64,000 nt of DNA from Micromonospora sp. CCTCC AA 2012012 (lineage in GTDB: Bacteria; Actinomycetota; Actinomycetes; Mycobacteriales; Micromonosporaceae): contig NZ_CP159342.1 of assembly GCF_040499845.1 (NCBI RefSeq), forward strand, positions 1,550,001 to 1,614,000, given 5' to 3'. Below, piece by piece: positions 43,001-55,265 of the stretch. Every line of letters begins with the position of its first letter. Position 1 is the first letter of the stretch. Below the pieces are notes generated by a model that saw only the letters and a program-made list of their open reading frames with translations, made no database searches and had not been told where the DNA came from. The translations under genes and the position numbers were made by a program.

Positions 43001-43365
43001 GAGTCGGCGGTCATGAACGCCACCCGGGCCGGTGGGTACGCCGGGTCCAGCGGCACGTAGGCGGCGCCGGCCTTGAGCACCGCGAGCAGGGCGACCACCA
43101 GCTCGGGCGTACGCGGCAGGCAGACGCCGACGCGGTCCTCCCGGGCCACCCCGCGCGCCAGCAGCACCCGGGCCAGCCGGTTCGCCGCCTCGTCCAGCTC
43201 GCGGTACGTCAGCACCCGGTCGGCGTGCCGTACCGCCTCCGCCTGCGGGGTCCGGGCGGTCTGCGCGGCCACCATCCGGTGCAGGCACTCCACGGTGGCG
43301 GGTGCGGCGGCGCGTCGGCCGCCGCTGCGGCGGGTGGGCCCGGCGGGGCGGGCGGGTGCGCTCAT
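40051..43365 (-). CDS. NRPS: A-PCP-C
   Basis: A 1,104-residue synthetase with no upstream C domain, so its A-PCP could be an initiation module. The A domain (about 25-500) contains [14 protein letters not shown] near 165 and [11 protein letters not shown]; the hand-read code D-L-F-N-C-A-L-T-Y is close to a known Ala code (DLFNNALTYK). PCP Ser548 lies in [11 protein letters not shown]. The C-terminal C domain (about 640-1,090) keeps the catalytic HH (His756-His757, HHIVCDDWS, with Asp replacing the usual Gly). No carrier or release domain follows; the C domain must act on a partner, most simply the A-PCP of the FkbM-containing synthetase. ATG 43365 overlaps the stop of the megasynthase gene (ATGA). 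Confidence 0.92.
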
Positions 43366-52300: not shown

Positions 52301-55265
52301 CCTTGCCGTTACCGGTCAGCGGCAACGCGTCGAGGAAGACGAATGCGGCGGGCACGAGGTAGGCCGGCAGTTCGGCGGCCAGCGCCGTCCGGAGCGTCGC
52401 GGCGTCGCTTCCCGCCCCGCCCGCCACGTACGCGACGAGCCGCGGGTCGTCCGGGTCGTCCCGGCGCAGCTGCACCGTCACGTCGCTCTCCGGCAGGCAC
52501 CGCCGGACGGCCGCCTCGATCTCGCCGCACTCGATCCGGTAGCCGCGCAGCTTGATCTGGTTGTCGGTGCGGCCCAGGTATTCCAGGTTCCCGTCGGGGC
52601 GGCGGCGCACCAGGTCGCCGGTGCGGTAGACCCGCGCGCCGGGGTCGGCCGAGAACGGGTGCGGGACGAACCGCTCGGCGGTCAGCGTCGGCTGGTTCAG
52701 GTAGCCGCGCGCCACCCCGGCGCCGCCGACGTACAGCTCGCCGACGACGCCCACCGGGACCGGGTTGCGCCAGGCGTCGAGGACGTACAGCTCGGTGTTG
52801 GCGATGGGCCGGCCGATCGGGACGGAGCCGTCGGTGGGCGAGGCCGGGTCGATCTCGTACGCGGCGCAGCCGACCACGGTCTCCGTCGGCCCGTACTCGT
52901 TGACCAGCGCGGTGTCGGGCGCGTGGGTCCGCCAGGCCGCCACCTGGTCGGCGCGCAGGTTCTCGCCGCCGATCACGAAGCACCGGGTGCGGTCGGCCAT
53001 CTCGGCGGGGCTGAGCTGGTGGCTGACCAGGTCGAGCTGGGCCGGGGTGATCTTGACCAGGCCGAAGGCCGGTCGCTGCCGGCGCAGCGCCTCGCCGAGC
53101 GCCTCGGGGCCGAGGTTCTCGCCGATCATCAGCACCGTCGCCCCGGCGACCAGCGGGACGAGCAGGCTGGTGACGGTCAGGTCGAACCCGACCGACGAGT
53201 GCAGCGGGACGGTGTCCCCGGGGCGCAGCCGGTAGGCCTGGGCGGCCCAGCGCACATAGTTGCTGACGCCCCCATGGGTGACCAGGACGCCCTTGGGGCG
53301 ACCGGTAGACCCGGAGGTGTGGATGACGTACGCCAGGTCGTCCGCCGTCGGCTCCGGCCGTCGGCGCGCCCGGCGGCGTGGACCGCCGCCCGAGCCGCCG
53401 GCGGCCCGGCCGGGCGCGGCGTCCGGGACCGGCGTGTCCAGCTCCGGCACCAGCAGCGTCGCGCCGTCGGGCACCAGGTGCGCCAGCTCGGCGCAGGTGA
53501 GCACGACGGGGGCGGCCGTGTCCTCGATCAGGTAGCGCAGCCGGGCGGGCGGGTTGGCCGGATCCATGGGTACGTAGGCCGCGCCGGTGCGCAGCACGGC
53601 GAGGACCGCCACCGGGAACGCGACGGTACGCGGTAGCAGCACCCCCACCAGGCTGCCGACGCCGACGCCCCGCCCGCGCAGCGTCTCCGCCAGCGCCTCG
53701 GCCCGCGCGTGCAGCTCGTGGCAGGTCAGCGCGGTGGTCCCGTCGGTCACCGCCACGCCGTCGGGGGTGCGGCGGGCCTGCCGTTCGATCAACAGGTGGA
53801 CCAGGTCGTCCGGTTCGGCGGGGGTGGCGGTGCGGTTCGCCTCCAGGACGAGCTGCCGGTGCTCGTCCGGGGTGAGCATCGCGGCCGAGCCGACCGGTGC
53901 GCCCGGGTCGCCCACCAGCGAGCGCAGCAGCGTCTGGAAGTGTCCGGCGAGGCGGACCATCGCCTCGTCGTCGAAGAGGTCGGTGCGGTACTCCAGCACG
54001 GTCCGCAGCCCGTGGGCGTTCTCCCGTACCGAGACGGTGAGGTCGAACTTGGCGGTGGTGCCGGGCACCTCGACCGGGGTGACCGCCAGGCCGTCGAGGC
54101 GGGGCGGGGTGGCCTCGCGGCCGTACACGAACATCACCTGGAACAGCGGGGTGACGCCGGGCCGGCGGGCCGGGCGCAGCGACTCCAGCAGCGTCCCGAA
54201 GGGCAGCTCACCGTTGGTCAGGGCCTCCAGGGCGGCGGTGCGCACCCGACCGAGGAGCGTCTCGAAGGACGGGTCGTCGTCCAGCCGGGCCCGGACGGCG
54301 ACGGTGTTGAGCAGCAGTCCGACGAGCTTCTGCGTCTCGGGGCGGCGGCGGTTGGCCAGGGGCGTGCCCACCACGATGTCGCGTTGCCCGCTCCAGCGCG
54401 CCAGCAGCACGTGCAGCGCGGCCAGCATGACCATGTACGGGGAGGCGCCGACGCGCTGGCACAGCGCCATCAGCTCGTCGGTGGGCACGTCCAGCGGGAA
54501 CGAACACGTGTTGCCGGCGGCGGACGGCGCGGTGGGTCGCGGCCCGCGGGTCGGCAGCTCCAGGACGGCCGGCGCGTCGGCGAGCTGGGCGTGCCAGTAG
54601 TCGCGCTGCGCCGCCGCCTCTGCCCCGCGCAGCCACTCCCGCTGCCAGGCGGCGTGGTCGCGGTGGTCGACGTCGACCGGGTCGAGCTGCGCCGGGCGGC
54701 CGGCGCGGTGCGCGGCGTAGAGCCGTTCCCACTCGTCGTGCAGGAGGGCGAGGGACCACTCGTCGACGGCGACGTGGTGGATGGTCAGCAGGAGCACGTG
54801 CTCCTCGGGCGCACAGCGCAGCAGGTCGGCGCGGAGCACCGGTCCGCGTTCCAGGTCGAGCGGGACGCGGGTCTCCGCGTGCATCCGGGCCCGGAGTTCC
54901 TGGTCGCGTTGCCAGCCGGGCAGTCCACTGAGGTCGTGCATCCGCAACAGCCCCGGGACCGGGTCGTGGACCACCTGGACCACACTCTCCACCCCGGCGG
55001 TCGGATCGGCGGCGAGGGTGGTCCGCAGCGCGGCGTGCCGGGCGACCAGCTCGTCGAGCGTGGCGGCCAGCGCCGCCACGTCGAGTGGCCCGTCCAGCCG
55101 GTACGCCAGCGGCACCAGGTAGCTGGCCGGGTCGGGATCGAGGCGGCTCAACGACCACATCTGGCGTTGTTCACCGGTGGCCGCGACCGGGTCGCCGGCA
55201 CGGGCGGCGTCGCACCGCGGCGGCGTGCCGGGCGTCGCCTGCCGGGACCTCAGGACGTCGGTCAT
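43362..55265 (-). CDS. NRPS-PKS megasynthase with Cys-thioesterase and fused MFS exporter
   Basis: A single uninterrupted reading frame of 3,967 residues. Domains in order: C (HHVAVDEWS, His163-164); A, about 485-990, code D-L-T-K-V-G-E-V-G, Asn-like; PCP Ser1062; KS, about 1,130-1,560, with Cys1303 (TACSTS), [12 protein letters not shown] and [12 protein letters not shown], about 1,650-1,940, with Ser1750 (GHSLGEY) and GYHSALLDP, probably malonyl; ACP Ser2076; C (His2295-2296, [10 protein letters not shown]); A, about 2,630-3,140, code D-M-P-Q-V-G-L-V-W, loosely Gly-like; PCP Ser3174; TE, about 3,225-3,470, with Cys3304 in GHCMGG; and a 12-helix-type MFS exporter, about 3,500-3,915 ([10 protein letters not shown] loop). 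No KR/DH/ER is present. ATG 55265 follows AAGGAGGAGG. First gene of the operon. Confidence 0.93.

Follow-up and report, generated by a model that had tools for sequence, protein, structure and literature searches.

Can a bacterial assembly line end in its own exporter, on one and the same polypeptide? As a rule, an assembly line and an exporter are made as distinct proteins, and the question is raised by a stretch of 64,000 nucleotides from Micromonospora sp. CCTCC AA 2012012 (contig NZ_CP159342.1, positions 1,550,001 to 1,614,000; the window), where an original prediction, made from the letters alone, placed nonribosomal peptide synthetase (NRPS), polyketide synthase (PKS), thioesterase (TE) and a complete major facilitator superfamily (MFS) exporter in one frame. 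Our analysis indicates that this frame, here called P0001, is likely the final member of an NRPS-PKS line, with a conserved release-and-export cassette at its end. Translation of 43362..55265 (- strand) gave 3,967 residues whose sole stop is terminal, so the predicted absence of a stop between TE and MFS was confirmed. An AAGGAGG ribosome-binding site lies 5' of the start ATG at 55265. Pfam found two condensation (C), two adenylation (A), one ketosynthase (KS), one acyltransferase (AT), three thiolation (T), one TE and one MFS domain in the order C-A-T-KS-AT-T-C-A-T-TE-MFS, with the best TE stretch at residues 3232-3332, MFS_1 at 3513-3851 and MFS_3 at 3507-3882. The A-domain calls given below (Asn-, Gly-, Ala- and Glu-like) are predictions, made by reading the specificity positions against a general code table. 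The parts of P0001 are as follows.

43362..55265, - strand: the hybrid NRPS-PKS-NRPS-TE-MFS polypeptide P0001, 3,967 aa (translation, Pfam, Shine-Dalgarno sequence AAGGAGG)
53856..55175, - strand: C1 domain, approximate, HHVAVDE at residue 163 (Pfam, motif)
52266..53825, - strand: A1 domain, approximate, code DLTKVGEVGK, Asn-like (Pfam, code reading)
51951..52163, - strand: T1, approximate, GGHS at residue 1059 (Pfam, motif)
50394..51869, - strand: KS domain with C-terminal extension (Pfam)
49494..50306, - strand: AT domain (Pfam)
48930..49124, - strand: T2 (Pfam)
47460..48824, - strand: C2 domain, HHNVSDG (Pfam, motif)
45909..47366, - strand: A2 domain, code DMPQVGLVWK, Gly-like (Pfam, code reading)
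45651..45863, - strand: T3, approximate, GGDS at residue 3171 (Pfam, motif)
44856..45584, - strand: thioesterase with a Cys nucleophile, Cys3304, Asp3422 and His3452 (Pfam, alignment, model)
44757..44855, - strand: Ala/Pro-rich linker, mostly of low model confidence (sequence, model)
43539..44747, - strand: MFS domain with 12 predicted transmembrane (TM) helices, DHA3-like drug/H+ antiporter type (Pfam, NCBIfam profiles, model, fold match)
43365..43538, - strand: C-terminal tail (model, sequence)

The TE ends at about residue 3470 and the first membrane helix starts at about 3507, which places the junction at nt 44757-44855, in agreement with the predicted interval of about nt 44,750-44,900. 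Third-position GC is 0.96 in the TE, 0.98 in the linker and 0.97 in the MFS. An internal start from which the MFS could be made as a separate protein was sought among residues 3440-3530. Five GTGs are the sole in-frame starts there, and by the pattern that we used not one of them has a ribosome-binding site. The expectation of a full-length MFS at the C-terminus also held, with 12 predicted helices of the drug/H+ antiporter type, and since these lie in the single frame, release and export are encoded together, as had been supposed. Seven places in the same genome match the MFS part at E <=1e-10, and P0001 is the sole one inside a long synthetase frame. The genome also encodes a separate 489-aa MFS protein (L033:7459-8928; G000:C1:2684605-2685867) with 37% identity to the fused MFS domain.

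We searched 5.8 billion proteins with residues 3215-3930, admitting only proteins of 0.55-1.75x the query length, and analysed the best 120 of 214 matches. All 120 end in TE-MFS, with 29-109 residues between the TE histidine and the MFS, so the co-linear fusions that the original prediction proposed to look for do exist. Its description of the domain order as unusual was only partly right and found no support as to rarity, since 68 of the 120 hold a KS and 47, window included, share the full order of P0001; a further 14, which all carry Nonomuraea names, are without the first A domain. The KS-bearing homologues come, by their named sources, from Micromonospora, Nonomuraea, Streptosporangium, Streptomyces, Amycolatopsis, Actinophytocola and Labedaea. 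Some shorter relatives bear the NCBI name 'non-ribosomal peptide synthetase/MFS transporter'. Among the proteins so named, P0082, P0092 and P0105 resemble P0001 in having T-TE-MFS in one frame, a Cys TE and about 45% identity over TE and MFS, but they are about 2,300-2,470 aa long, lack KS-AT and have a terminal A code of DMGEIG(A/S)VDK, whereas that of P0001 is Gly-like. P0001 likewise holds an NRPS module, TE and MFS in one frame, and because the fusion is visible in NCBI protein names, it is a member of a family that is already annotated.

Among 160 Micromonospora genomes, with six candidates scored per genome, 128 contained some match at E <=1e-20 and 93 a match running from the TE through the MFS (our count of the rows shown). 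A scan of a genome collection yielded 557 relatives. We retained 80 of these (61 Actinomycetota, 10 Bacillota, 8 Chloroflexota and 1 Spirochaetota), and in 80/80 the TE and MFS share one frame. NRPS-TE-MFS fusions therefore form a conserved family, frequent in Micromonospora and represented in four phyla or more.

The TE of P0001 has the nucleophile elbow GHCMG, with Cys3304, and an intact Cys-Asp-His triad. In an alignment with 6n8e, its triad Asp lies at the RifR/ObiF place and Gly occupies the usual Asp place, which is G or A in 48/48 fused TEs. In these three features, Cys, Asp place and Gly place, it is like ObiF1 (obafluorin, a beta-lactone) and SulM (sulfazecin, a beta-lactam), whose last residue bears a beta-nucleophile, while the A2 domain of P0001 is predicted from its code to be Gly-like. 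A beta-lactone on the last residue was accordingly rejected for P0001, because a terminal Gly allows none. In a tree that took in the 29 matches with loci, of 36 listed besides the window's own, the fused TEs form one clade among the sequences examined, sister to the ObiF1 and SulM TEs. These two were also the TE rows among the matches listed when the TE+MFS model was compared with known folds, MFS rows filling the rest. In the genome-collection set, 79/80 relatives align the Cys and L153 has its Cys just before an unread stretch; this count is biased because one of the two scan patterns contains GHC. ObiF1 and SulM differ from P0001 in having no MFS, ObiF1 carrying an MbtH-like domain after the TE. 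The main texts of the papers on them describe triads with a Cys nucleophile and Asp at the RifR-like place, and contain 0 occurrences of 'MFS' and 'transporter' (PMC6668435, PMC11298585).

The model of TE and MFS (pLDDT 86.5, pTM 0.84) comprises an alpha/beta hydrolase, a low-confidence linker and 12 membrane helices (counted by inspection), and its MFS part fits SotB (inward conformations), VMAT and NorA; a search of the MFS part against PDB sequences gave 0 matches. MFS_3 scored 73.1 vs a Pfam cut-off of 27, and the nearest profiles were TIGR00900 (H+ antiporter), Mef and EntS. An alignment of 38 rows shows that the residues of motif A (G-x3-D-R-x2-R-R) are conserved in P0001. The EntS, Mef and DHA3 exporters are H+ antiporter-type MFS proteins, as in P0001, but presumably separate proteins unjoined to a synthetase, unlike P0001. 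We then placed 177 MFS domains in a tree (33 of the best 120 TE-MFS homologues, the best 120 of 615 MFS matches, 19 fused loci and 5 separate MFS from loci). The rows that are fused or truncated-fused number 66, of which 14 were called truncated-fused by a simple pattern, and every one of the 66 fell in one 79-row branch (SH-aLRT 99). Because the fused MFS domains examined fall on one branch, a single old TE-MFS fusion is probably the simplest history of the pair.

Three architectures were distinguished among the relatives. Class I has the hybrid order of P0001, class II is A-T-C-A-T-TE-MFS (about 2,300-2,500 aa), and class III is C-A-T-TE-MFS (mostly about 1,850-2,200 aa). Sets of 20, 80 and 11 loci were chosen by us from the genus-search rows. 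Two of the 31 Micromonospora loci typed over the whole frame (L026:3398-9580, + strand, and L027:3479-9622, - strand) read C-T-TE-MFS-A, with the MFS internal; no A stands in its customary place ahead of T, so loading of that T domain may fall to the trailing A. The 80 class III loci (L064-L143) were picked for one match spanning TE and MFS, so their single frame (80/80) is expected; the count of Cys in them is unaffected by this choice. Their last A domain is Ser-like in 62/80, Asp-like in 17/80 and Thr-like in 1/80 (raw counts). Elsewhere the last A is Cys-like in L016, Ser-like in the hybrid relatives P0042 and P0044 (the latter by a cruder reading), and often Asp-like or unclear in other phyla. 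A Ser-like last A before a Cys TE of the ObiF clade fits the need of a beta-ring-forming TE, and class III loci are candidate beta-lactone makers in many Micromonospora. One class III locus (L020:451-3639 and 9058-10869) consists of a C-A-T protein, a C-A(Ser-like)-T-TE-MFS protein and pieces of a DUF885 peptidase, a small two-module line.

How would such a cassette work? The chain on P0001 is probably Asn, malonate and Gly, with Gly last, as predicted from the domains. It would move from T3 to Cys3304 of the TE, which would free it either by hydrolysis or by closing a ring. The MFS, part of this one polypeptide, would then take up the product in its cavity on the cytoplasmic side and pump it out by proton antiport. 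The linker of some tens of residues would tie the MFS to the synthetase, and this tether would fix the terminal module at the membrane, where it is expected because a full 12-helix MFS lies in the single frame. From family and fold we infer that the product is the cargo of the MFS and that P0001 sits in the membrane. The product might go straight from TE to MFS, as originally supposed; that the tether makes this transfer faster or safer, or shields the cell from a reactive product, is speculative.

Several observations weigh against a release-and-export cassette. The TIGR00900 score of the MFS, 207.8 bits, is below the curated cut-off of 319.6. The first 20 loci fetched were fused in 19 cases, the exception being L017:5731-8151, where a Ser-type TE (335 aa) and an MFS (470 aa) are unfused neighbours that share a reading frame but are separated by a stop. 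The fused MFS branch includes 13 short proteins, of which eleven are partial or on contigs <18 kb, and P0126, on an 801-kb contig, and P0143, on one of 9.7 Mb, appear to be genuinely separate MFS proteins; the fusion is therefore not indispensable. Finally, among 396 genomes of the phylum, with two candidates scored per genome, no fused relative was found besides the window, the 4 matching genomes being its own and three with the MFS in separate frames.

It is unlikely, in our estimate, that the MFS is a membrane anchor or a general self-protection pump instead of the carrier of the TE product. The names of its nearest profiles include general macrolide efflux pumps, and a pump encoded close to NRPS genes frequently serves to protect the producing strain. 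However, a bare anchor needs no conserved antiporter, while the motif-A residues and the 12-helix fold are kept, and the TE-MFS pair has been retained through changes of the upstream modules. We give still less credence, and very little, to an MFS that is made separately from an internal start or cleaved after translation. The separate appearance of P0126 and P0143 would suit it, and the sequence is compatible with a cut by a protease, but the five GTGs without a ribosome-binding site, the relatives that keep the frame across 29-109 residues between TE histidine and MFS, and the A domain that follows the MFS in L026 and L027 all argue against it. An assembly or sequencing error joining two genes, or chance, was rejected as practically impossible because the junction is conserved across homologues in independent genomes and phyla, and no point was found in its favour.

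Beyond the release-and-export cassette, we tentatively propose, as a possible but doubtful extension, that TE-MFS is a self-protection module of single origin, in which strained-ring TEs are permanently joined to an exporter because they release reactive electrophiles that need immediate exit. These might be beta-lactones from a terminal Ser or Thr, perhaps thiolactones from Cys, and other rings in the hybrid class. P0001 would then need another ring closure, such as formation of a tetramate through a carbon-carbon bond, to which a Cys-bound thioester and a KS-AT module that lacks a ketoreductase of its own would be suited. If this were true, the family would represent a rich and unexploited supply of reactive electrophiles. 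The conserved covalent link between TE and pump offers a direct test of two questions: can release and export of a peptide be channelled, and does the end of an NRPS operate at the membrane? Together with a Cys TE of the strained-ring clade, TE-MFS offers a genome-mining handle for natural products that may be reactive. Synthetase engineering could also make use of the cassette.

Among known systems, epsilon-poly-L-lysine synthetase is a peptide-making synthetase that resides in the membrane, like P0001 in our reading, with six TM segments between A-T and C-like domains, and is not known to have an MFS or a TE; the domain order of P0001 does not follow this arrangement of A-T, six TM segments and C-like domains. 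In a paper search, mostly without subscription literature, we recognised no description of a bacterial NRPS-TE-MFS protein. Three points appear new: the TE-MFS pair probably arose once, it is constantly linked with a strained-ring TE clade, and there is a variant with an internal MFS. The original prediction contained neither these points nor the Cys nucleophile of the TE and its kinship to ObiF1 and SulM. Fungal counterparts, likened to P0001 by their published descriptions, also have a thioesterase and then an MFS in one predicted protein, but are PKSs or PKS-NRPSs: a Verticillium PKS with TE-MFS is tabulated in PMC9495618 and a PKS-NRPS with Te-MFS appears in PMC11057048.

The stop of P0001 overlaps the ATG of the next gene (ATGA), and the genes that follow it are these.

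40051..43365, - strand: A-T-C NRPS, 1,104 aa, starting in the ATGA overlap with the P0001 stop; A code DLFNCALTYK, Ala-like (Pfam, code reading, conservation)
39000..40058, - strand: TauD-like dioxygenase 1 (domain scan, conservation)
37987..39003, - strand: TauD-like dioxygenase 2 (likeness without a Pfam scan, weak NCBIfam matches to related oxygenases, conserved)
32684..37990, - strand: NRPS with degenerate C, A (Glu-like) with embedded FkbM methyltransferase, T, C and T; start approximate (domain scan, motif, code)
31509..32687, - strand: Cys/Met-metabolism PLP enzyme (Pfam/NCBIfam)
30615..31448, - strand: PIG-L type deacetylase, nearest MshB below its cut-off (Pfam/NCBIfam)
29025..30563, - strand: SDR/ketoreductase-like protein (Pfam/NCBIfam)

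The genome scan included 13 hybrid loci from Micromonospora. In 11 of them the hybrid gene is followed by those for the A-T-C protein and the two dioxygenases and by the beginning of the second NRPS gene; L148 breaks off early, and L152 lacks all of these downstream genes. Within 6 kb beyond the TE-MFS match, these genes were found in 0/11 hybrid loci of Nonomuraea, Amycolatopsis and Labedaea. Because the downstream genes differ among hybrid loci, the cassette has been kept while its partners change, and the hybrid core appears to have moved between clusters. The Nonomuraea loci L155-L160, L165, L166 and L172 carry the hybrid TE-MFS protein without the downstream genes of the Micromonospora operon. 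In the NRPS at 32684-37990, the first C domain has TPLIADP in place of HHxxxDG and lies beside the two TauD-like dioxygenases; it may be a recruiting interface domain.
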